The notes under the pieces are model-generated. The model did no database searches. It had not been told where the DNA came from and saw nothing but the letters and a program-made list of their open reading frames with translations. Below are positions 2 through 16,127 of a DNA stretch of 26,091 nt, piece by piece. The translations under genes and the position numbers were made by a program. Source of the DNA: a virus. Position 1 is the first letter of the stretch, and each line of letters starts with the position of its first letter. The DNA is taken from positions 1-26,091 of IMG/VR virus record IMGVR_UViG_3300006874_000118. One strand, 5' to 3'.

Positions 2-2248
2 AGAGTTGAGTCTTTTAACGAGTATCAACAAAAATTTGGTGGTCTTACCGAAGATTCATACCTTCCGTATACCGCTCAATCGTATTTAGAAGAAGCTGGT
101 GCTGCAACTATCGTAAGAGTATTGGGTAGTGGTGGTTATACTCTTGGTAACCCAATTGTATTGACAATCTCATCTTCTGCTGGTAACAAAGTTGCCGCTG
201 TATTACACCCATCAACTCAAATTGATAAAACTAATACTGGTAATTTTGCTAATACCACTTCAAGTAGGGTAATTGATAATGTTGATGGTAGTACACTTAT
301 TGTAACTGCTTCAAACTTCTCATTAAGTATTAGTGGTTCAGGTGCTACATTATCAACAGTGTCTGCATCATTAAATCCAAGTGATGCTAACTACCTTACA
401 AAAACATACGGATACGCTCCTAAATCTTCAAAGAATGTATACACTTACTTAAACTTCTCAACTTTCCAATCAGCATCTTTTGCTACCGGTGAGGTTGTTA
501 CAGTTCAAACTGCATCATTCTTGAACACAGCATACACAAGTGATTATTCTGAAGCATTAACTCCTTGGATTGTATCTCAAAGAGTGGGTGGTTCTACTAC
601 AAACTTGTTTAAGTTCCACACACTTTCTCATGGTACTGCTACAAACTACGAATTTAAAGTAGGTATCCGTGACATCAAACCAGCTTCAGAGGTGCCAGGT
701 TCTGAATATGGTACATTTAGTGTGATTGTTAGAAGAGTAGATACTGAAAAGATTCCTAATTCAATTTTCGGACAAGGTGTTGATGATTCTGATACTAAAC
801 CAAATATTGTAGAAGAATTTACAGGTCTTAATCTTGACCCTAACTCACCAAACTACATTAAGAGAGTAATTGGTGACAAATACATTACTGTTGACGCTAA
901 TGGTAAATTGTCAACTAATGGTGACTACGATAACGCATCAGTTCACATTCGTGTAGAAGTTGATTCTGATGTTGATAGTGGTGCTATTGATTCAACACTC
1001 GTTCCTTTCGGATTTGCCGCATTGACTTCTCCACTTCAAAGTGGATATACATTACCAGACCCATCATATGTAGTGTCTCAATCAATTTCATCTGAATACA
1101 ACAAGAGAGTATTCTTGGGATACAACTATGATTTCTCAAATACTGATAACTTGGCATTCTTAAACCCAGTACCTGCATCTTCAACTACAACAGTTGGTTC
1201 TGCGTTTAACTTGGCAGATTGTCACTCAAATGGTTCATCAATCACATTAACTTCAGACATCGATGCTAAGAAATTCATCGTACCTTTCCAAGGTGGTTTT
1301 GATGGATGGGAGCCAAACCGAGTTGTTAATGTAGGTTCATCTATTACCGCAGGAAATACTCAAGGATTAGATTGTACCAACGCAACATCTACCGGTACGG
1401 TTTCTATGAGAAAAGCTATCAACGCAGTATCAAATCCTGATGAATTTGACATCAATATGGTTGTAACTCCAGGTATGATTAATAGACTTCACTCTTCAGT
1501 CACCACATTCGCTAAAGATATGTGTGAAGATAGATTGGATTGCTTCTATGTAATGGATGGTGGTGCATATGGTGACTCAATCAATGTGGTTGTTAATTCA
1601 TTGACTTCGTTTGATTCTAACTATGTTGCTACTTACCACCCTTGGTGTAAAATTCTTGATACCGATAAGAACAAACCAGTCTGGGTTCCGCCAAGTGTTG
1701 TACTTCCTGGTGTAATTGCATTTAGTGATTCAGTAGGTGCTGAATGGTACGCTCCTGCCGGTTTAAATCGTGGTGGACTTCCAAACGTAATTGAAGTTGA
1801 GACTCGTTTAACTCACGATGAGAGAGATACTCTATATACAAATAGAATCAACCCAATTGCTACGTTCCCAGCACAAGGTGTGACTGTATTCGGTCAAAAG
1901 ACACTTCAAGCTAGACCATCCGCTTTGGATAGAATCAATGTTCGTAGATTGTTAATCGCAGTGAAGAAATACATCGCATCTTCAACAAGATACTTGGTAT
2001 TCGAAAACAACACCGCTGCTACAAGAAACCGCTTCTTGTCAATCGTGAACCCATACTTGGAATCAATCCAACAAAGAAATGGTTTGTACGCATTCCGTGT
2101 AGTAATGGATGATTCAAATAACACACCGGATGTGATTGATAGAAACATTATGGTAGGGGAAATTTACTTACAACCAGCCAAGACTGCTGAATTCATTGTA
2201 CTTGATTTCAACATTCTTCCAACTGGCGCTGCATTCCCAGAGGCATAA
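2..2248 (+). CDS. Tail sheath protein (5' end cut by window)
   Basis: Contractile tail sheath subunit, the counterpart of T4 gp18, which polymerises around the tail tube and contracts on infection. The frame is open from base 2, so the visible 748 residues lack the true N-terminus; the TTG near base 122 is internal. The first visible residues (FGG, then YLPYTAQSYLEEAG and IVRV) match the sheath N-terminal pattern in which a short loop precedes a helix and an RV strand. The last 120 residues carry the conserved C-terminal domain: NVRRLLIAVKKYI, TRYLVFENN, RNGLYAFRVVMDDSNNTP and an acidic-to-aromatic end (EFIVLDFNILPTG). The middle is rich in Ser, Thr and Asn, as expected for surface insertions. 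The tube gene follows 44 bases downstream, the usual sheath-tube order. Identification is confident; the missing N-terminal length cannot be judged here. Confidence 0.93.
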   Translation, partial: RVESFNEYQQKFGGLTEDSYLPYTAQSYLEEAGAATIVRVLGSGGYTLGNPIVLTISSSAGNKVAAVLHPSTQIDKTNTGNFANTTSSRVIDNVDGSTLIVTASNFSLSISGSGATLSTVSASLNPSDANYLTKTYGYAPKSSKNVYTYLNFSTFQSASFATGEVVTVQTASFLNTAYTSDYSEALTPWIVSQRVGGSTTNLFKFHTLSHGTATNYEFKVGIRDIKPASEVPGSEYGTFSVIVRRVDTEKIPNSIFGQGVDDSDTKPNIVEEFTGLNLDPNSPNYIKRVIGDKYITVDANGKLSTNGDYDNASVHIRVEVDSDVDSGAIDSTLVPFGFAALTSPLQSGYTLPDPSYVVSQSISSEYNKRVFLGYNYDFSNTDNLAFLNPVPASSTTTVGSAFNLADCHSNGSSITLTSDIDAKKFIVPFQGGFDGWEPNRVVNVGSSITAGNTQGLDCTNATSTGTVSMRKAINAVSNPDEFDINMVVTPGMINRLHSSVTTFAKDMCEDRLDCFYVMDGGAYGDSINVVVNSLTSFDSNYVATYHPWCKILDTDKNKPVWVPPSVVLPGVIAFSDSVGAEWYAPAGLNRGGLPNVIEVETRLTHDERDTLYTNRINPIATFPAQGVTVFGQKTLQARPSALDRINVRRLLIAVKKYIASSTRYLVFENNTAATRNRFLSIVNPYLESIQQRNGLYAFRVVMDDSNNTPDVIDRNIMVGEIYLQPAKTAEFIVLDFNILPTGAAFPEA

Positions 2249-2292: not shown

Positions 2293-2781
2293 ATGGCACA
2301 ATTACTTGACCCAAATGAAATTATGTTCACCAACTTTGAACCTAAAATGTCCAATAGGTTCATTATGTATGTGGAAGGAATTCCAGCATACTTGGTGAAA
2401 ACGGCTGCCAGACCTGAAATCCAAAATGGTAAAGTGACTATTGACCATATCAACACTCGTAGATATGTAAAAGGTCGTTCTGAATGGCAAGACCTTTCAG
2501 TAACTCTTTACGACCCAGTAGTTCCATCTGCTGCACAAGCAGTAATGGAGTGGGTACGTTTACACCACGAATCAGTAACAGGCCGTGATGGTTATTCTGA
2601 CTTCTACAAAAAAGAAATCGTATTCAACAGTTTGGGTCCTGTTGGTGATAAAGTAGAAGAGTGGACATTGAAAGGTGCTTTTGTACAATCAGCTAAATTC
2701 TCTGATATGGATTACGCTGGTGAAGATTTGGCAACAGTAGAATTGACACTTACTTACGATTACGCTATCTTACAATACTAA
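2293..2781 (+). CDS. Tail tube protein (gp19-like)
   Basis: Major tail tube subunit of 162 aa, close to the 163 aa of T4 gp19; it forms stacked hexamer rings inside the sheath. The start at 2293 is fixed by a strong ribosome site, AGGAGA at 2282-2287. Visible signs are the N-terminal segment SNRFIMYVEGIPAYLVKTAARP, the central RSEWQDLSVTLYDPVVPSAAQ and the C-terminal VELTLTYDYAILQY, a layout typical of T4-type tube proteins. It sits directly after the sheath gene and is followed by a strong intrinsic terminator, so sheath and tube probably share one late transcript that ends here. Confidence 0.92.
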   Translation: MAQLLDPNEIMFTNFEPKMSNRFIMYVEGIPAYLVKTAARPEIQNGKVTIDHINTRRYVKGRSEWQDLSVTLYDPVVPSAAQAVMEWVRLHHESVTGRDGYSDFYKKEIVFNSLGPVGDKVEEWTLKGAFVQSAKFSDMDYAGEDLATVELTLTYDYAILQY

Positions 2782-3217: not shown

Positions 3218-3239
3218 ATATTTATATGTGGTTAACCAA
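3218..3239 (+). promoter_or_regulatory. Candidate late promoter/operator motif, copy 2
   Basis: Second copy of the element seen at 2850-2871: ATATTTAT, then TG, then the palindrome GGTTAACC and AA. It begins 23 bases past a terminator and ends 20 bases before the ATG at 3259. Its position implies that it helps restart transcription for the gp26-like gene; this has not been shown. Confidence 0.5.
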
Positions 3240-3258
3240 AAATATAACAAGGAAAGTT

Positions 3259-4128
3259 ATGGCAGATTTACAAGATGATTACAAACTATCCGATAAGGAT
3301 GTTGCTGAAAAGTTGAGAGCTCAACACGAGGTTCAACAAGTTCGTGATTACAAATTCCCAACTGAAATTATTGACCTACCATCAAGAGGATTAATTTATC
3401 CAACAGATAACCCACTTTCAAGTGGTAAGGTAGAAATGAAATATATGACTGCAAAAGAAGAGGACATCCTCACAACACAATCATATATTAAAGATGGTTC
3501 GGTACTTGACCGACTATTCCAATCCCTAATCGTATCTAATGGTGAAGGTGTTGCTATTAAATACGTTGATTTAGTAGTTGGTGATAAAAACGCAATTATG
3601 ATTGCTGCACGTGTTTTGGGTTATGGTAAAGACTATGAAGTTGAAGTAACCGACCCATTCACAGGTAACAAACAAAAAGAAACTATTGACCTTACTCAAT
3701 TCGAGAATAAAGAATACGATGGTTCAGCACAAATTGCACCAAATGTTAATGAATTTCAATACACACTTCCACGTTCTAACCGAGAAATCACCTTTATGGG
3801 TATGACTGAATCGAAGGAACGTAGGGTAAAACATCAAGTTGAGGAACTCAAAAAGGCAAATCGTAAATTAAAAGATGAGACCTCAAGAGAATTAACAACT
3901 CGTTTAAAAACTATGATTCTTTCAGTAGATGGTGAAACTGAACAAAATGTAATTAATCACTTTGTTGATAATGAGTTGTTTGCAGTAGATTCAAAAGCAC
4001 TTCGTGACTATATTTCACAAACTCTTCCTGATATTGACCTTACTTGGGAATTTATTTCAGAGGAGACAGGCGAAAGGAGGGAGATGTCCTTGCCAATGGA
4101 CACGAGCTTTTTTTGGCCTAACTCTTGA
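3259..4128 (+). CDS. gp26-like baseplate/tail assembly protein
   Basis: A 289-aa product resembling the T4 gp26 family of baseplate hub assembly proteins (Pfam T4_baseplate family, recalled from its pattern). The family signature is clear: PTEIIDLPSRGLIYP, KYMTAKEEDIL, LDRLFQSLI and VGDKNAIMIAARVLGYG in the first half, a charged helical part near residues 190-225, and a C-terminal end at FFWPNS. The start at 3259 is chosen because AAGGAAA lies just upstream; an upstream in-frame ATG at 3226 lies inside the regulatory motif. In T4, gene 26 is followed by gene 51, and here a gp51-like reading frame overlaps the 3' end in another frame. The order (this gene, frame overlap, tape measure) matches tail assembly chaperones of other phages, made as a short and a frameshifted long form. 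An internal AGGAGGG at 4075-4081 precedes an in-frame ATG at 4084. Confidence 0.85.
   Translation: MADLQDDYKLSDKDVAEKLRAQHEVQQVRDYKFPTEIIDLPSRGLIYPTDNPLSSGKVEMKYMTAKEEDILTTQSYIKDGSVLDRLFQSLIVSNGEGVAIKYVDLVVGDKNAIMIAARVLGYGKDYEVEVTDPFTGNKQKETIDLTQFENKEYDGSAQIAPNVNEFQYTLPRSNREITFMGMTESKERRVKHQVEELKKANRKLKDETSRELTTRLKTMILSVDGETEQNVINHFVDNELFAVDSKALRDYISQTLPDIDLTWEFISEETGERREMSLPMDTSFFWPNS
4108..4114 (+). other. Probable programmed frameshift site (run of seven T)
   Basis: The zero-frame codons are AGC TTT TTT TGG CCT AAC TCT TGA. A +1 slip of the Phe-tRNA (TTT at 4111-4113 to TTT at 4112-4114), or a -2 slip on the same run, moves the ribosome into the frame that continues GGC CTA ACT to 4324. 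The continuing frame has no plausible start of its own near this point. A homopolymer count error in the assembly (seven T for six) would look the same. Confidence 0.6.
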
Positions 4129-4584: not shown

Positions 4585-6678
4585 ATGGCTGAAAAGTCTG
4601 GAGCAGATTACGAGAAAGAATTAAGAAGCGCAAACGACTATGCTAGAAATCTAGCAAAGGAGTTTATGGAGCTGGATGGTATATCGGAGTCAACCCGAAA
4701 AAAAATGGCTGCGATGTCCCTCGAAATGAAGGGGCAGGCTGACATTGGCGACCAACTAAATACACTTATTGCTCAACGACAAAAATTCATTGAAGATGAA
4801 ATAGCCGCAGGTCATACTATTAGTAAAGCCGCATTAAGTAGACTTGATAGCGAAATAAAATTACTTGAAAAAGCAAAAACTCAAAAGGATTTACAAGAGG
4901 AACTAAAAGATAATCTAAAAGATTCAGTTGGTTTAAATAATGAGTTTGTAAAAGCATTAACGAAGGGTGGTATTGTTGCTCTTGGATTATTGGTTCTGGC
5001 CAAAGTAGTAACATTCTTTACCGATGCAGTTAAACGTGGCATAGAACTTAACAAAACTTTAGGTTTAAATGTAAAGAATGCTGCTGTATTTGAAGGTAAC
5101 TTACAACGTGCACGGCTATCAGTAGATGGTATGAAGCATGGTATGGATGCACTTACCAAATCAGCCGAAGAATTAGTAAAACAAACAGGTAACATTAATC
5201 TATCACCTGATTTGATTGCAAACGCAACTGAAATTTCAGGGCTTCTTGGTGATGATACATTAGGTGTGTCTCTTACAAGAAGTATTGAAAATGCAGGTGT
5301 AAACTCTGGCGAGTTAGCTGATAAGGTCAAAGACATGGCCAACGCATTGGGGGTTGATGCAACCTCTGGAATGGAAATGTTGGCGTCCAATCAAGGTATT
5401 CTTAATAGTATGACTGAAGAGCAGATGTTAAATCGTGCTAAAGAAGGTTTGATGATTAAGAAAATGGGTCTTGATGTTAAAAAGATGAATGACCTTGCAT
5501 CTGAACGATTGGATATTGAATCCTCACTTCGTGCAGAAATGAAACTTCAGATGTTCTCTGGTCAACAATTAAATATGCAAGCCCTTCGAGAGGCAAAGGC
5601 AAGAGGTGATGCTGCTGGTATCGCAATGGAAACTAAAAAGTTGATAGATACGTTGGGGCCTGCTTATGAAAGTAACGCCCAACTTCAACGTATTATTGCA
5701 GATGAAACAGGATTCACCAAAGATGAAATTCAGAATGTTCTTAATGCTACCGAAGAACAAAAGAAACTTGATGAAGAGTTGTTGGAGCTTAGAAAACAAA
5801 TGCCAGAAGCAACATTGGAAGATTTGGATGCTCAAAAGCAACAAGAAGCACAAACTGCTGCTACAATTTCTACCGTAGGTCAATGGGCTCTTGGTCTTGG
5901 CGCCGTAGCCGCCGCCTATCTTTTAATAAAAAAGTTTGGTGGTGGTTTAGGAAAACTAATGGGTGGTAAGGGTGGAAACCCGATTGCAAACTTTGTTAAA
6001 GGGTTTGGTAATAAAAAAGTCCTTATGGGTGCTGCCGCAATGGCATTAGTTGCCGGGTCACTATTCATATTTGGTGCAGCCGTAAAACAATTTATGGAAG
6101 TATCGTGGGATGCAGTTGGTATGGCAGTTGTATCTATGTTAGCACTCGTTGGAGCACTTGCATTAGTGGGTGCTATTATGATGAGTGGTGTTGGTGCTGT
6201 CGCAATCCTTGCTGGTGCTGCTGCAATGTTAGTAATCGCAGCCGCATTGTTAGTTCTTGGTCTTGCAATTCAAGAAATCGCCAAAGGATTTGGAATGATG
6301 GGTGAGCTTGGTAGCCAATTAATTGCATTAGTAATGATTGCTCCAGGTCTTATTGCACTTGCTGGCGTCTTTGCTCTATTGGGAGCATCTATGATACCAT
6401 TTGCTATGGGACTTGCATTTATTACACCATTCCTTCCTACATTATTGATTTTAGGTGCTATGTTACCATTAATTGCAGGTGCTCTTGGATTTGGTGGTGA
6501 AGGTGAATCAGAAGGTGCCGGTGGTGGTGTTAGTTCAGACCCATTATTGGATGAAATTAAAGGACTCCGTAGAGATATTCAGTCACAACCTGTTCAGATT
6601 GTTATTGATGATAAAGTGGTGTCTCAAATGAATAAAAAGAATGTAAGAATGCAATCTTATAGAGATGGATTTAAGTAA
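4585..6678 (+). CDS. Tape measure protein
   Basis: A 697-aa tape measure protein, which spans the tail lumen during assembly and sets tail length; in T4 this job belongs to gp29 (590 aa). AAGGAG at 4574-4579 fixes the start. Residues about 45-115 form a charged, heptad-like helical region; a first hydrophobic segment lies near 128-146; residues 150-430 are helical and charged; and a chain of five or six hydrophobic, Ala/Gly-rich segments occupies about 432-632. The end has a Gly-rich linker (near 633-650) and a charged tail. This hydrophobic-segment pattern, and the place between the chaperone-like gene and the baseplate genes, is typical of tape measures. Using the usual rule of about 1.5 angstrom per residue the tail would be about 105 nm; this is inference. 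Confidence 0.87.
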   Translation: MAEKSGADYEKELRSANDYARNLAKEFMELDGISESTRKKMAAMSLEMKGQADIGDQLNTLIAQRQKFIEDEIAAGHTISKAALSRLDSEIKLLEKAKTQKDLQEELKDNLKDSVGLNNEFVKALTKGGIVALGLLVLAKVVTFFTDAVKRGIELNKTLGLNVKNAAVFEGNLQRARLSVDGMKHGMDALTKSAEELVKQTGNINLSPDLIANATEISGLLGDDTLGVSLTRSIENAGVNSGELADKVKDMANALGVDATSGMEMLASNQGILNSMTEEQMLNRAKEGLMIKKMGLDVKKMNDLASERLDIESSLRAEMKLQMFSGQQLNMQALREAKARGDAAGIAMETKKLIDTLGPAYESNAQLQRIIADETGFTKDEIQNVLNATEEQKKLDEELLELRKQMPEATLEDLDAQKQQEAQTAATISTVGQWALGLGAVAAAYLLIKKFGGGLGKLMGGKGGNPIANFVKGFGNKKVLMGAAAMALVAGSLFIFGAAVKQFMEVSWDAVGMAVVSMLALVGALALVGAIMMSGVGAVAILAGAAAMLVIAAALLVLGLAIQEIAKGFGMMGELGSQLIALVMIAPGLIALAGVFALLGASMIPFAMGLAFITPFLPTLLILGAMLPLIAGALGFGGEGESEGAGGGVSSDPLLDEIKGLRRDIQSQPVQIVIDDKVVSQMNKKNVRMQSYRDGFK

Positions 6679-8997
6679 ATGGCATTAAAAGATTTAAAAT
6701 CAGACTTGTCTAAATTTAGAAGACCCGTTGAAAACCCACTTGTAGAAAAACCACGAGTGAATATTCCAAAATCTTCTAATCAGACCCCATTATCTCAATT
6801 TGTGGGTAATACCCCTGATGCGCCAAAGTCTCAAACAACAACCCCTAAACAAGGTGTGACTCCAACAAAGTTTGATAACTCACCAAACTATTTGGGAGAA
6901 ACATCGCCAAGTCAGTTTGATAACTCATCAAACTATTTGGGAGAAACTACTACAAAACGAATGTCTTTAGAAGAAAGATTCTTGGGACAAACTGAAACAA
7001 CATTAGTTCAACAAGGGGATAAATTCAAAGGTGAAACCGAAACGGCAAATATTACTCAAGGAGATAGATTTAAGGGTGAAACGACTCCTGAAGACTACTC
7101 CAATGCCGAAAAGTTCAAAGGAGAAACCACACCAACAGAACTAAAATTTACACAACAATTTTTAGGTGAAACAACACCAAAGCCAAGCAATGTTTCAGAA
7201 AAGTTTTTGGGTGAAACTAACCCAACCAAGATGAATTTAGAAGCAAGGTTCTTGGGAGAGACTGATATGCCGGATATGGTATTAGAAAGTCCATTTAAAG
7301 GTGAGACCACTCCAACTAAAATGAATTTGGAAGCTGGATTTTTAGGTGAAACGACCCCAAGTACCTTTACATTTGACCCCAATCTACAAACCCAAGCAAA
7401 AGACCCTCAATTTGTTGACTTTATTACAAATGATGATGCACGTGGATTTTCACCATTCCAACAACCAAAGAATAATTCTACTTTTGTTGGAGTAGACCCA
7501 TCTCAAACTCAATTCGAGGGAGTTACCCCAATAACAGGTCAGTTTGTAATCAGTCAGTACAATGTATCAAAGCAAAATGATAGTGGATTGGGTAAATCAT
7601 ATACTGATAATAGGTTAAACGAACTATATAATCGGTATAATCTAAAAGAAGATTCTTACAACTCATCAGTCTTCAAACAACCATTTATTTTGAGTGGTAT
7701 TCAGAAAACAAATGGTGAGCCGGAACGAGTTGGTATAGGTTCGTTTTCATTCATCAGAGGGGGTGCTATTACATCCACGGCTAGAGCTGTAATTGACGCA
7801 GTAAGAGTGGGACAATTCCTTTTAACCCCTCGTGGTTTAATTTGGTCTTTGAAACAAGTAGGTATGCAGAGAAGCCAAACATATGGTAAAAAATGGACTC
7901 CAATTAATCTACTTTCTAATATAGCAACCCAACATCTTGGTTTACGATTTGATAGACCTGGTGTTAAACCTATTGGTGATGAGACTTGGAAGTATAACCC
8001 AAATGCATCTATAAATGAAAGCCCATTGTTAAACACATATAATACATTTACATTGGGTGGTATAGGTATAGAGTCCGATATTTGGGTATTTAAGGCCCAA
8101 ACCGGAGGACCTGACTCATTCTATGGTATTGGTGCTAGCGCTCACACAAGAACCATAAATACTTTTACAAATTACAAAAGTGACTCTGTATTACCATTAC
8201 CTACCATAAACGATTATGAAGGTATTTCATATGGTACAATTTCAAAAATTGCAAATGGTAACGCACCATCAAAATACAAAGGTGATTTTAGAAATCTAAA
8301 AGATGCATCAATCCAAAAATCAGATTACACTCAAACAAATCGTAATAAAACTTATGGTTTGCCTGAAACATTTAAGACAAATGCTGAAAGAATCAGGCCG
8401 AGTAATTTTAGAGCAAGAACGGATAGTGTATACAACTCTGTATTTAATGCTAAATTACAAAATGATTTTGTACACCTATTCTTCGCATATGATACTGATG
8501 CTGGTACTCAAGACTCCGGTAAGATAATTCAATTCCGTTCTACAATCAATGGTGTAACTGAAACATTCTCACCAAGTTGGAATGGTATCAAATATCCCGG
8601 TCGTGCTGATAAAGCATATATGTATAGTGAATTTGAGAGAACTCTTTCATTTAATTTCAAAGCATATGCATCATCACGAGATGATATGAAACAAATGTGG
8701 GAAAAGTTATCAGAGTTGTCAAAACTTACAATGCCAACTTACGGAAGTGCATATTCTGGCCACATTTGTTACTTTAGATTGGGTCAACTTTGGGGTAATG
8801 GTACAACAGGAGTTCCCACTTTGATTACATCACTAACATATACCATTCCAGATGATTTACCTTGGGATATAAATCACGATAATGAGTTAGCAGAATTACC
8901 AATGGGTGTTGATGTTTCAATTGGATTAACATTATTGCCAGATACTATTTATAGTAGTGATAAAAACCACTATTCATTTTACGATACGTTGACATAA
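6679..8997 (+). CDS. Baseplate protein with 15-residue repeat array
   Basis: A 772-aa protein with two distinct parts. Residues 41-235 are a chain of 15-residue units with a (F/Y)(L/K)GET core, low in hydrophobic residues and likely extended. Residues about 265-765 are a folded region. Its C-terminal 170 residues include FSPSWNGIKYPGRADKAYMY, then FERTLSFNFKAY, MWEKLSELSKL, and an end with SLTYTIPDDLPWDIN and GVDVSIGLTLLPD; this pattern is one I associate with baseplate proteins of T4-type phages. The ATG at 6679 follows the tape measure stop directly. The next genes are a LysM-like gp53-type protein and the hub, so it lies in the baseplate block. Its exact place (tube initiator, wedge or connector) cannot be told from sequence. 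The repeats are unusual for a baseplate protein and are described separately. Confidence 0.75.
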   Translation: MALKDLKSDLSKFRRPVENPLVEKPRVNIPKSSNQTPLSQFVGNTPDAPKSQTTTPKQGVTPTKFDNSPNYLGETSPSQFDNSSNYLGETTTKRMSLEERFLGQTETTLVQQGDKFKGETETANITQGDRFKGETTPEDYSNAEKFKGETTPTELKFTQQFLGETTPKPSNVSEKFLGETNPTKMNLEARFLGETDMPDMVLESPFKGETTPTKMNLEAGFLGETTPSTFTFDPNLQTQAKDPQFVDFITNDDARGFSPFQQPKNNSTFVGVDPSQTQFEGVTPITGQFVISQYNVSKQNDSGLGKSYTDNRLNELYNRYNLKEDSYNSSVFKQPFILSGIQKTNGEPERVGIGSFSFIRGGAITSTARAVIDAVRVGQFLLTPRGLIWSLKQVGMQRSQTYGKKWTPINLLSNIATQHLGLRFDRPGVKPIGDETWKYNPNASINESPLLNTYNTFTLGGIGIESDIWVFKAQTGGPDSFYGIGASAHTRTINTFTNYKSDSVLPLPTINDYEGISYGTISKIANGNAPSKYKGDFRNLKDASIQKSDYTQTNRNKTYGLPETFKTNAERIRPSNFRARTDSVYNSVFNAKLQNDFVHLFFAYDTDAGTQDSGKIIQFRSTINGVTETFSPSWNGIKYPGRADKAYMYSEFERTLSFNFKAYASSRDDMKQMWEKLSELSKLTMPTYGSAYSGHICYFRLGQLWGNGTTGVPTLITSLTYTIPDDLPWDINHDNELAELPMGVDVSIGLTLLPDTIYSSDKNHYSFYDTLT
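6799..7383 (+). repeat. Array of 13 in-frame 45-bp (15-residue) repeats
   Basis: The core (F/Y)(L/K)GET starts at residues 71, 86, 101, 116, 131, 146, 161, 176, 191, 206 and 221 of the baseplate protein, exactly 15 apart with no slippage (one unit has FLGQT). Two weaker units precede it: FVGNT at 41 and a GVTPTKFDNSPN unit at 56. Units often continue TP, and the motif TPTKMNLEA occurs in two units (one with N for the first T). DNA copies have diverged between units, so the protein period is under selection. Confidence 0.92.
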
Positions 8998-8998
8998 T

Positions 8999-9301
8999 AT
9001 GAACCGATACGAAAACATACAATTACAAAAGGACGCTACGGGTCGTAGATTCAGAACTACGGTATTGTTACCTGTAATTGAACCTGATTTGAATGATATA
9101 TACATCATTGGCCAAGTAGGTGACCGATTAGATAATCTTGCATTCAAATATTATGGGGATTCTTCACTTTGGTGGATTATTGCAAGAGCAAATGATATTG
9201 GTAAAGGTGATTTTACTGTACCAATTGGATTACAATTAAGAATACCGGCAAACCAATATGATATTATAGATGCATACAAGATTTTAAATAATATTGAGTA
9301 A
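8999..9301 (+). CDS. Baseplate protein, gp53/LysM-like
   Basis: A 100-aa protein like the LysM-type baseplate proteins, of which T4 gp53 (wedge) is an example. The LysM-like core is at about residues 39-68: VGDRLDNLAFKYYGDSSLWW followed by IIARAN, with the ending VPIGLQLRIP. This DRLD.LA..YYG...LWW.I...N pattern is characteristic. In baseplate proteins the fold mediates contacts between subunits, not peptidoglycan binding as such. The start at 8999 lies one base after the stop of the repeat-bearing gene, implying translational coupling; the hub gene follows at 5 bases. Confidence 0.82.
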   Translation: MNRYENIQLQKDATGRRFRTTVLLPVIEPDLNDIYIIGQVGDRLDNLAFKYYGDSSLWWIIARANDIGKGDFTVPIGLQLRIPANQYDIIDAYKILNNIE

Positions 9302-9306
9302 AAGTT

Positions 9307-11034
9307 ATGGCTAGTAGTATATTCGATACGGGAACTTTACCAATCCCCCCAAGTCCGTTTGATAGTAGAGAACGTGCATACAAACGTAGGTCATATGGTA
9401 GTGTTACTTGTGTTGGTAATGACCAATTTGATTGTGGATTAAGTTATACAATTTCATTCAAGAGTAACGAATCTACAAAATATGCTCAAGGTGGTGCATT
9501 ACAAGCCCGTGGTGGTGGTAGATACACTCCAAACTCACACTTAACATCCATAAAGACAAAAAACCAAGGTAGTGGTGATATTAACGACTCAGCATTATGG
9601 GAAATTGAATTTCAATATACTTGTTATAGTACAGCGCAACTGAATTCCGCTACAAATGCATTTATGGTTCCTGGAAATTTATTAAATATTACCATAGGAT
9701 ATGACCCTGGAAGTAAATTGACTATAAATAACGCTCGACTATATGACTTTAGTTGGTCTTATAATTCAGATGATGGAACATATAGTTGTACCGGAAAGGC
9801 ATTGGGTAAAAACTCTAAAGCCGGTATTTTGAATGCGGTAACAGTAAAACCATCAGATGTTTCTGTTTCAATTAAAGATAAAGGTGACAAATCACAATCC
9901 GGTCATGGCGTCATAAAAAAGTTAGCAAACGAAGGTGAGCTTGCATTAGGATTAACTCGTAGAGATGGTAAACTTAGCGGAGCTCGAATACCATCAACGG
10001 ATGGTAGAGCATATGCAAAGGAAGATTACGCTATTTTAAAATTGCAGAAAGATGCTGGTTTTTGGGATATGACATTTTCACTTGGTAGTGCTGACAATAT
10101 AATTGTTCCAATGGTTAAGATTAAAAAAGTTGTTGATTATATGGCAGAGAACACCGGAGTCCCTATTGAATTTAATAAAGGGCAATTTAATACGGGGTTT
10201 TCATTATTAAAATCAGCCGACCCTCGGAAAATGTGTTTTCCTGGAAAACGAGGAAAGTATGGTGATGATAATGATTTTAGTGCATTAACGGGCACCGATG
10301 GTGAGGTGAGTGAGATTTATGTAAGTTTTCCTCATTTAATAGAATTGGAAGAACGCATCCTAAACGAAATCAGTAAAGAGGGTCAAAGTTATACACTACC
10401 TACTTTTTTTAATACATTGTTTGGTGATTTAGAAATCTTGTCGGGTGGAGCCATTGATTGTTTTTTAACAGCAACATCAACCGGATATGCCATAATCAAT
10501 CGTAAATATGATATTAAAAAGAGTGGATATAGTACAATTAACTTATATAGTAAAGATTCCGCTGTAAAGAGCGTAAATATGTCATCTAATCTTGACCCTG
10601 ATATGGCAGCACTTGCATTTGCAGGTGGTAGTGGTAAATATCCTACCGCATTTGCAAATAATTTGTTTAGTGGATGTACACGAAAAGATACAAAAGCCAC
10701 TAAACCAGTAGACGACCCAGCAGCTAAACTTCAAGCGAAAATAGATGATATTGGAAAAAACTATAAATCAGAAATCGTATCCGACTTTCAGTCAGTATTA
10801 AGAGAATATATAAATTCAAACGCAAAGGGGTTTGCTATACGATATGGCATTGATTTATCAATAACAATGGATGGGTATTCTGATCCTGAATTTATGCAAA
10901 AGTTTAGAGTAAGTCCAATGCCAGCAGCAGTTTCTGGTGCAAGTGTTTACTTTGTAGTTGGTGAGATTGAACACACTTGTGATGGTGAAACGTGGGATAC
11001 TTCCATAGTTGGATATATGATGGTTTCAGTATAA
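9307..11034 (+). CDS. Baseplate hub protein (gp27/gpD-type candidate)
   Basis: A 575-aa protein that by position and pattern is a baseplate hub component, joining tail tube and central spike. N-terminal residues 30-180 are beta-rich with Gly-rich loops (YAQGGALQARGGGRYTPNSH). The C-terminal 90 residues (YGIDLSITMDGYSD, then FYFVVGEIEHTCDGETWDTS-like text ending IVGYMMVSV) resemble the end of hub proteins, where a beta-strand H....W.T.I.G.M is conserved. It follows a gp53-like gene and its stop overlaps the next start (TAATG). The annotation as hub is inference from context and weak pattern matching; a different baseplate subunit is possible. Confidence 0.62.
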   Translation: MASSIFDTGTLPIPPSPFDSRERAYKRRSYGSVTCVGNDQFDCGLSYTISFKSNESTKYAQGGALQARGGGRYTPNSHLTSIKTKNQGSGDINDSALWEIEFQYTCYSTAQLNSATNAFMVPGNLLNITIGYDPGSKLTINNARLYDFSWSYNSDDGTYSCTGKALGKNSKAGILNAVTVKPSDVSVSIKDKGDKSQSGHGVIKKLANEGELALGLTRRDGKLSGARIPSTDGRAYAKEDYAILKLQKDAGFWDMTFSLGSADNIIVPMVKIKKVVDYMAENTGVPIEFNKGQFNTGFSLLKSADPRKMCFPGKRGKYGDDNDFSALTGTDGEVSEIYVSFPHLIELEERILNEISKEGQSYTLPTFFNTLFGDLEILSGGAIDCFLTATSTGYAIINRKYDIKKSGYSTINLYSKDSAVKSVNMSSNLDPDMAALAFAGGSGKYPTAFANNLFSGCTRKDTKATKPVDDPAAKLQAKIDDIGKNYKSEIVSDFQSVLREYINSNAKGFAIRYGIDLSITMDGYSDPEFMQKFRVSPMPAAVSGASVYFVVGEIEHTCDGETWDTSIVGYMMVSV

Positions 11035-14159: not shown

Positions 14160-16127
14160 ATGGTTATGAAGAAACTTATCAATTACATAGCACAAAAAGT
14201 GTGGAACGAGGTCGGAGTATCCCTAAAAGAGGGTATTACTGAAGAAGAGGCATTAAAGGCCACCTTCAAAGTTGTTTCAGAAATCGTAGATGAAGAGTTT
14301 GCTGAAGCATATATCGTATCATTGTTAGAAGTTCAAGGTGCCAGCGGCGAAGAACCTGAAGTAGGTGATGAAAAAGACCTTGAAGATGAAAAACTTGGTA
14401 TGATGACCCAAGCTGAAAAAGATGCTCAAAAGAAAAAATTAGAACTTGATGAAGCCGATGGTGATATTCAATCAGTTCTCAATAGTAAGATAACAAATCC
14501 AGATACGGGTAGACAAATTAAGGTAAGTTCGGGCCTATCTTATGATAAAAATTCCGGTGGTTACCAAGCCGCAAAGGCAAAAATGAAAGATTCTGGTATT
14601 TCGGATGATGATATTGAAAAGGTAACTACCGCATCAACCGATGATACTAAATCCACATCCAAGTCAGAACCACAAGCAAATGGATATGTTGGTGATAAGG
14701 ATAAATCGCTAAAACAAGGTGACCCTACAAAAACCGAAACATATTCAATGGATTTACCACCAGATGAAGCTGATTTCCAAAAAAGAAATGCTAAATTTGC
14801 CAATCCAACCCCACCCGAATCATATAAGATGCCAGACTTTATGAAGAACAATCCAAAGTTCCCTAAAAAGTATCTGACCGCATTAGAACGAATGATGAAT
14901 ACTCAACCAAAAGGTGATGCTACTAAATGGCAACATTATAGTGACATTGCTGGTGGAGCAGGTCAAATTTCCGCACAAGCCGGTGAATTGATGACCATGA
15001 TGGGTGCTACTATGAGTGATAAAGAATGGGGTGAATTCAGTAACTCACTCCTTCAACATGAAGCTTCTCTAAAAGAGAATCATCCTGATGTCTTTATGAA
15101 AAAAGATGCAAAAACTGGTAAGTACAAAGACAATCCTGGTTCAAGAGTTGTTGATGGTTCTTGGGTTAAAGCCGCTACTCAAAGTAGAAAGGCAATCAAA
15201 GACCGACTTTTGAAACAATATGGTGATGGTACTGAAATTGTAGCTGGTGCTTGGGATACTGAAGCTGATGTTGAAGCAATGGGTATGTCAAATTACAATG
15301 ATAACAAAGGGTTCTCAACCGATATGTACCTAAAGGTGAAAAAGCCAAATGGTGAGCAAGTATTAGATGAGGTGTCTTTGAAGAAATCAACTAATGTAAA
15401 CTTTTTAAATTCAGGCGCAGGTAAATTTAACGAATGGGACCCTGATTTACCAGATGAAATCAATCCATCGGTATATGTTCAAAAAGCAAGAGAGCGAAAC
15501 ATCTCGTATGTATCACGAAATAGAGCTAAACTTGAAGAGTTGATGAAATCGCCAAAGGGTAAAGAAATTAACGCAGTTTTAAAGTCAAAGAAATTAACCC
15601 TTGACCAAGCTTTAGAAGGTAACTCACGAGATAAACAAAAAGTTTTATGGACTGCTATCAATTCATTAGCTAAAGCTGGTGACAAATCTGCAAGTGAAAT
15701 AGTAGATAGAGATGATAGGGAGCATAGAGAGTTCCAAGAAAATTCAGTAAAAGCAATTACTGAAAACCCAAAGATGAAAGAGGGTATGTTAAGTGAAATT
15801 CGTTCAGAATTCCCTCTTAAAGCAGTTTCCGAAGGTGAAGAGACAATGGCTATTGGCCCTTACTCATTGGATAAAGAAACTATGAAAACTATCTTTGGTA
15901 CTGATGATTATGATAAATTAAAAGAAAATCTTGTAGCAGAATCAAGTCCAGAGGGCCCGTTTGTTGGATATCGTATCCAATCTTCAGGTGAAGTTTTTAA
16001 AGTAGCAGATATTGTTATTAGAGAAGATGGTCGTGGATATGGTGGTCAGTTTAAGTTTGAAATGAAACTGAATCAAAAAGGATTTGCTAACCAACTTCGT
16101 AAAGCGCAATCCGAAGTATACGGATAA
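14160..16127 (+). CDS. Large protein of unknown function, 655 aa
   Basis: I cannot name this family. Residues 1-56 are a helical N-terminus (MKKLINYIAQKVWNEVGVSL); 60-105 are very acidic; 110-142 hold NPDTGRQIKVSSGLSYDKNS, which resembles the NP.TGR.IK short motif of viral adaptor segments; 155-225 are low-complexity and polar. Residues 235-470 look folded and contain STDMYLKV (D388) and LDEVSLKKS (K408), then FLNSGAGKFNEWDPDLPDE. That D...EVSLKK order could be a PD-(D/E)xK-type nuclease core, but this is a guess. The last 90 residues contain IGPYSLDKETMKTIFG, SSGEVFKVADIVIREDGRGY and FKFEMKL. The start may be ATG 14160 or 14166; there is no ribosome site. It follows the polymerase gene by 6 bases. 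Possibly an injected or DNA-processing protein. Confidence 0.85.
   Translation: MVMKKLINYIAQKVWNEVGVSLKEGITEEEALKATFKVVSEIVDEEFAEAYIVSLLEVQGASGEEPEVGDEKDLEDEKLGMMTQAEKDAQKKKLELDEADGDIQSVLNSKITNPDTGRQIKVSSGLSYDKNSGGYQAAKAKMKDSGISDDDIEKVTTASTDDTKSTSKSEPQANGYVGDKDKSLKQGDPTKTETYSMDLPPDEADFQKRNAKFANPTPPESYKMPDFMKNNPKFPKKYLTALERMMNTQPKGDATKWQHYSDIAGGAGQISAQAGELMTMMGATMSDKEWGEFSNSLLQHEASLKENHPDVFMKKDAKTGKYKDNPGSRVVDGSWVKAATQSRKAIKDRLLKQYGDGTEIVAGAWDTEADVEAMGMSNYNDNKGFSTDMYLKVKKPNGEQVLDEVSLKKSTNVNFLNSGAGKFNEWDPDLPDEINPSVYVQKARERNISYVSRNRAKLEELMKSPKGKEINAVLKSKKLTLDQALEGNSRDKQKVLWTAINSLAKAGDKSASEIVDRDDREHREFQENSVKAITENPKMKEGMLSEIRSEFPLKAVSEGEETMAIGPYSLDKETMKTIFGTDDYDKLKENLVAESSPEGPFVGYRIQSSGEVFKVADIVIREDGRGYGGQFKFEMKLNQKGFANQLRKAQSEVYG

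Follow-up and report, generated by a model that had tools for sequence, protein, structure and literature searches.

A regular repeat array in a tail gene of an uncultured virus

The window analysed here, a stretch of 26,091 bases, is the record of an uncultured contractile-tailed virus, and the features of its tail genes are listed in Table 1. The gene for a 772-aa protein (ORF 6679-8997) sits between the tape-measure protein (TMP) gene and the genes of the LysM and putative hub proteins. The 697-aa TMP ORF (4585-6678) itself has no family match; its homologues match the TMP annotated in Flavobacterium Immutovirus, by BLAST at E=1.6e-70 and by hhalign at a probability of 100. The hub candidate at 9307-11034 was assigned by position, with no family match in Pfam or PHROGs. 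Elsewhere in the window, the 407-aa ORF at 12930-14153 matches the C-terminal part alone of phage DNA polymerase profiles (phrog_17 positions 926-1235 of 1445), which would fit a polymerase split over more than one ORF. No PHROGs family matches the 655-aa ORF at 14160-16127, which is flanked by the polymerase fragment and the ssDNA-binding protein gene.

Table 1. Tail genes and array-protein features in the window
Feature	Position	Strand	Basis or remark
Tail sheath protein, 5' end missing; alternative docking lattice	2..2248	+	Synteny with annotated Immutovirus sheath; on average 79% identical across the clade
Tail tube protein, 162 aa; candidate docking lattice	2293..2781	+	phrog_4542, E=1e-25; 78-99% identical in array clade
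T4_baseplate family protein (gp26/gp51-like)	3226..4128	+	PF12322, E=1.3e-6
Tape-measure protein (TMP), 697 aa	4585..6678	+	Homologues match annotated Immutovirus TMP; hydrophobic segments
Array protein, 772 aa: N-terminal array and predicted C-terminal tail-tube-initiator domain	6679..8997	+	ORF, fold matches, 57 non-redundant homologues
Conserved N-terminal motif MALKDLKSDLSKFRR	6679..6723	+	Present too in array-free homologues
Degenerate unit FVGNT	6799..6813	+	In register, two periods upstream of array
Array	6859..7353	+	11 units x 15 aa; profile T-P-x-x-x-[DN]-x-S-[ES]-[KQ]-[FY]-[LK]-G-E-T
Lone sequence similar to the ~44-residue repeat of Mel-JY01 and its relatives (VDFITNDDARGFSPFQQPKNNSTFVG)	7414..7497	+	By eye, against P0001 and L077
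Conserved GIQ...RGG region	7615..7995	+	Alignment A3; served to find relatives
Predicted tail-tube-initiator domain, tube-like beta-barrel and one helix	8383..8994	+	AlphaFold2 pLDDT 85; Foldseek
LysM/gp53-like baseplate wedge protein	8999..9301	+	phrog_7145, E=3.5e-13
Probable baseplate hub protein, 575 aa	9307..11034	+	Position only

The N-terminal part of the 772-aa protein contains eleven [FY][LK]G[EQ]T cores at aa 71-221. As the first-pass annotation had claimed, their starts (aa 71, 86, 101, ..., 221; window 6889-7353) are separated by exactly 15 residues at every step, and the lag-15 self-identity of aa 61-230 reaches 0.445, compared with a maximum of 0.20 for 5000 shuffles when all lags are considered. 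That annotation had also placed two degenerate units before the array: FVGNT (aa 41, window 6799) keeps the exact register, whereas KQGVT (aa 57-61) is off by one residue.

To find relatives, six scans of viral contigs were made, yielding close to 290 loci, many of them sharing contigs; 57 non-redundant loci possess both an FLGET array and a complete TMP ORF. Among 55 distinct N-termini, the core-to-core step is 15 in 692 of 721 intervals. At the DNA level the units of the window's array have a mean pairwise identity of 0.52, and Tandem Repeats Finder reported for the window a marginal 23-base array alone. Over the relatives taken together, the third base of the core Gly, Glu and Thr codons varies while the protein is fixed (Gly: GGT 559, GGA 158, GGG 48, GGC 11; Thr: ACA 400, ACT 215, ACC 100, ACG 61). 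This third-base variation, together with the divergence of the DNA, indicates that the period is held at the protein level, which bears out the earlier view that the period matters: the FLGET array is real and is kept as protein. That it could be a functionless by-product of recent tandem duplication is barely credible. Some loci do have identical adjacent units, as such an origin would leave, but with 52% mean DNA identity and variable third codon positions, the core and the period persist.

The array protein resembles contractile-tail tube initiators

The last 204 residues of the array protein are modelled by AlphaFold2 with a pLDDT of 85 as a tube-like beta-barrel with one helix. The best PDB matches of this domain are tube initiators of contractile tails with TM scores of 0.5-0.6. 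Foldseek matched it to the initiators of A-1(L) (8kea, E=1.7e-7), PVC (6j0n, E=1.9e-7) and Afp (6rao, E=3e-6), and also to the R2 pyocin, Mu and T4 counterparts; the best fold matches of the whole-protein model were again tube initiators. On the basis of fold and gene order, the array protein is probably a tail-tube initiator, which narrows its earlier, correct designation as a baseplate protein. The sequence itself had no match in Pfam or PHROGs, libraries that need not include this lineage, and nothing was obtained from domain libraries or a PDB sequence search; matches to a 'Cake' domain were weak and non-significant.

The array region has a pLDDT of about 35 in the whole-protein model and is without long helices. 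It is therefore not predicted as a stand-alone globular domain, in keeping with the extended chain that had been proposed from the sequence. We considered whether the array could itself be a tape measure, and rejected this on the same low pLDDT and lack of long helices and on the presence of a separate TMP ORF at 4585-6678. A TMP chaperone of the lambda gpG/gpGT type, which is a small frameshift product, was likewise rejected, since the array lies within the continuous 772-aa initiator ORF.

Whole-unit variation among relatives and other periods or none in other lineages

Across the 57 loci, the number of units ranges from 4 to 21 and TMP length from 595 to 1127 aa; a further locus, L042, has about 24 units and a TMP that is cut off. 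Where close relatives such as L040 and L045 have arrays of different length, they differ by a whole number of units. Outside the FLGET clade, arrays with other periods were found: 44 residues in Microcystis phage Mel-JY01 and its relatives, 41 in L209, 28 in L201, 14 in L212 and 16 in L292. The L292 array (aa 67-290 of its ORF) is an unrelated 16-residue repeat, GRHTEGKEVxNxSPLS, occupying the place of the FLGET array. In L210, GRH units related to those of L292 are irregularly spaced.

Homologues that retain the conserved C-terminus and lack any period, which the first-pass annotation had named as a refuting case, do exist in other lineages (L223, L225, L231 and Rhodothermus phage RM378); TMPs of array-free homologues are 776-1009 aa long. 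The existence of these array-free homologues indicates that the array is a lineage-specific addition, dispensable for tube initiation. Most homologues, including those with other arrays or none, keep the N-terminal motif MALxDLxSxLxxFR. It occurs also on chains too short to span the tail, and it must have a role independent of reaching the tail's far end.

Three loci (L280, L283 and L264) appear by eye to be recombinants, combining a window-type region after the array with an array and TMP like those of another lineage; in these, array size follows the TMP. Clearly different TMP sequence types occur in otherwise similar phages (window 4585-6678; L018, L103, L100 and L089), and most of the difference in TMP length comes from hydrophobic segments in the C-terminal half.

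Unit number scales with tape-measure length

TMP length was used as the proxy for tail length in all scaling figures. The first-pass annotation had suggested comparing repeat number with tail traits in relatives, and in the 57 loci unit number rises with TMP length (raw r=0.917), as does the length of the whole N-terminal region (raw r=0.81). A first fit to 55 loci gave r=0.926; ten loci fetched later fell mostly near it and extended it downward, to a 623-aa TMP with 6 units and a 595-aa TMP with 4. Independent contrasts were calculated mainly on a tree of the C-terminal domain with five treatments of the tip-branch lengths. They gave r=0.65-0.78 for unit number against TMP length (sign-flip p about 5e-5 or below) and r=0.70-0.74 (p at most 0.001) for N-terminal length. 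Deep contrasts on a hub-gene tree were 0.70 and 0.83. A binarised independent-pairs sign test was underpowered, with 3-5 pairs only. As controls, neither C-terminal length (r=0.18, p=0.23) nor hub length (r=0.02) was correlated with TMP length. The ratio of N-terminal to TMP length is 0.51 (SD 0.04) in 56 of the 57 loci. L261, with 18 units and a 788-aa TMP, and L282, with an N-terminus of 503 and a TMP of 595 residues, are outliers.

Three functions had been put forward for the array: a ruler, a tether and a clamp around six-fold rings. The scaling agrees with something like a ruler or a tether, whereas a clamp on a single six-fold ring predicts none. A strict counting ruler was rejected: pairs of loci (L040/L045, L037/L039) are one unit apart at equal or nearly equal TMP length, and since the near-identical phages L040 and L045 differ in this way at the same TMP length, strict length-counting is doubtful.

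The same one-unit differences would be expected of a loose baseplate tether or clamp, with the TMP correlation arising from exchange of adjacent gene blocks among a few phage types; the array and TMP genes are neighbours, and array-free homologues function. We consider this unlikely, because the contrasts are significant on two trees and under five branch treatments, the N-terminal/TMP ratio is held within narrow limits, and C-terminal and hub lengths are uncorrelated despite similar linkage. In tail proteins, repeat arrays are often adhesive, and this general precedent would favour surface-exposed repeats that bind host or glycan independently of tail length. Such a role is very improbable here: the array scales with TMP length, keeps a strict period and a conserved core in divergent phages, and is carried on a tube initiator, a component that is buried in solved tails.

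A conserved lattice is favoured as the partner of the array

The tube protein is 162 aa long throughout the array clade and on average 89% identical to that of the window; the corresponding clade identities are 79% for the sheath and 38% for the TMP. Within this clade there is almost no variation in the FLGET core. In partial correlations, unit number follows total TMP length (r=0.83) and not TMP hydrophobic content (r=-0.22), and TMPs of equal length and different sequence type carry equal numbers of units (L018, L103 and L108 versus L001). Docking of the array on hydrophobic TMP segments was not supported. The fixed core, the conserved tube and the partial correlations together favour, without proving, a conserved lattice rather than the TMP as the partner of the array. 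Seventeen residues of the tube protein (window 2293-2781) are specific to the FLGET clade relative to other lineages, N45, Y58, H91, S137, Y141 and G143 among them, and are candidate contacts in a possible docking site.

The partner could instead be the TMP if the array acted as a coat or chaperone, binding the TMP within the assembly-initiation complex, before the tube forms, at one unit per ~30 residues and keeping it soluble or extended. The array gene adjoins the TMP gene, the scaling is with TMP length, and long hydrophobic TMP stretches would need masking. Against this, unit number is independent of hydrophobic content and is equal for different TMP types of equal length, and no protein of the module is less conserved than the TMP, whereas the FLGET core is nearly fixed. 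We regard a TMP coat as rather unlikely, with perhaps the best claim among the alternatives to lattice docking.

Geometry of the proposed chain

The TMP gains 28-33 residues per array unit (reduced-major-axis slopes; bootstrap 95% limits 23-46). The A-1(L) tail is 1045 Å long with 24 tube rings, and its TMP is modelled to residue 689 (PMC10966104), figures that give about 28.7 TMP residues per ring. T4 has 138 gp19 subunits and a gp29 of 64.4 kDa (PMC3004832), from which 23 rings and about 26 gp29 residues per ring can be calculated. When N-terminal length divided by 15 is compared with TMP length divided by 28.7, the mean ratio is 0.99 (SD 0.12), or 0.85 with a calibration of 24.6. Fifteen residues per ring rise of ~40 Å correspond to 2.7 Å per residue, which by this arithmetic on a proxy would leave an extended chain slightly slack. 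One unit per ring is compatible with the increment, and roughly with the total if the non-FLGET N-terminus is counted. The window phage has 11 cores compared with about 24 expected rings, so that a full span can be argued only if the chain also includes N-terminal sequence other than FLGET units.

Starting from the observed fixed period, variable unit number, scaling with TMP length and initiator fold, we propose that the array protein is an extended chain, anchored at the initiator, that runs along the tube with approximately one docking per ring and is matched in length to the TMP. For this proposal, the likeliest of the explanations considered, we hold the chances to be evenly balanced. As its fold and gene position suggest, the C-terminal tube-like domain would form a hexameric ring on which the tube grows, and the N-terminal region, some 340 residues long here and 280-650 in most relatives, would lie as an extended chain along the tail axis. 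Each 15-residue unit would offer one F-L-G-E-T motif, and successive motifs may dock on successive tube rings, or on the enclosing sheath rings. Each of the six tube protofilaments would presumably have its own chain. This chain would lengthen by whole units with the tail, as a length-matched lace and companion of the TMP, comparable to nebulin on actin. Its benefit might be to keep the tube in register during growth, to hold it on the baseplate or to brace it in contraction.

The chain model is supported by homologues with unrelated motifs at a similar step, 16 in L292 and 14 in L212. Counting against it are the outliers L261 and L282, the array-free homologues with TMPs of 776-1009 aa and the presence of the N-terminal motif on chains too short to span the tail. 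The Mel-JY01 lineage also counts against it: the N-terminal/TMP ratio there is 0.81-1.02 versus 0.51, about twice the chain per TMP residue, and correlation with TMP length is weak (raw r=0.50, p=0.03; contrasts r=0.39, p=0.11). That the array is a second length-matched tail chain, a nebulin-like lace extending from the tube initiator with one motif per tube ring that co-evolves with the TMP by whole units, its motif sequence and partly its step (14, 16, 41, 44 residues) being replaced in other lineages, has in our estimate slightly less than an even chance.

In the prevailing view, the TMP alone sets tail length. If the proposal is true, a second protein matched to TMP length and anchored at the tube's starting ring would be added to the tail components, and unit number would be a readable code for tail length in uncultured phages. 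The array makes testable the registration of one chain with a helical protein tube and the co-evolution in length of two neighbouring genes by whole repeat units.

Comparison with known tail proteins and with nebulin

The array pattern, for which a search in phage proteins had been suggested, was absent from 50,697 phage records, and the 57 relatives were found in viral contigs. No FLGET array was present in the cultured phages, solved structures or family models searched, no relatives of the array protein were found in a bacterial and archaeal genome collection, and the open-licence literature yielded no description of such an array, of a second ruler or of the FLGET sequence. A lone FLGET elsewhere in a 181-kb relative lies within an AAA ATPase and was taken as chance.

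The initiators T4 gp48/gp54, A-1(L) gp18, Mu gp43 and those of R2 pyocin and Afp/PVC share with the array protein the tube-like fold and with the window the gene order TMP, initiator, LysM protein and hub, but those searched are without an N-terminal array. None of the matched solved initiator chains exceeds about 450 residues, compared with 772 for the array protein and up to 2306 for its homologues. An initiator is thus a known kind of protein, whereas a length-matched chain on an initiator is new to the sources searched.

In Microcystis phage Mel-JY01, the 2255-aa hypothetical protein WWT39329.1 has a homologous C-terminal region (33% identity), the same gene order, the same N-terminal motif and an N-terminal repeat array. 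Its unit differs, being 44 residues of other sequence without FLGET, with about one chain residue per TMP residue. In this cultured phage (L009:3618-10385) the protein contains at least 15 near-identical units; Pfam 'WDGH' and 'W2' matches to them look like chance matches of a repeated 44-mer and were set aside. The Flavobacterium Immutovirus protein QQO92153.1 (32% identity) and the RM378 protein NP_835654.1 (28% identity) have the homologous tube-like domain and no regular period. Like the array, TMPs scale in length with presumed tail length; unlike them, the array is predicted to be disordered, has no hydrophobic helices and is part of the initiator chain.

Along actin thin filaments, nebulin presents short motifs at regular intervals, their number following the length of the filament. 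It has no homology to the array, from which it differs in motif, length and filament, and one motif per subunit would apply to the array only under the chain model. The array has two nebulin-like properties, a fixed spacing (692/721 intervals) and a scaling of unit number with the TMP-length proxy.
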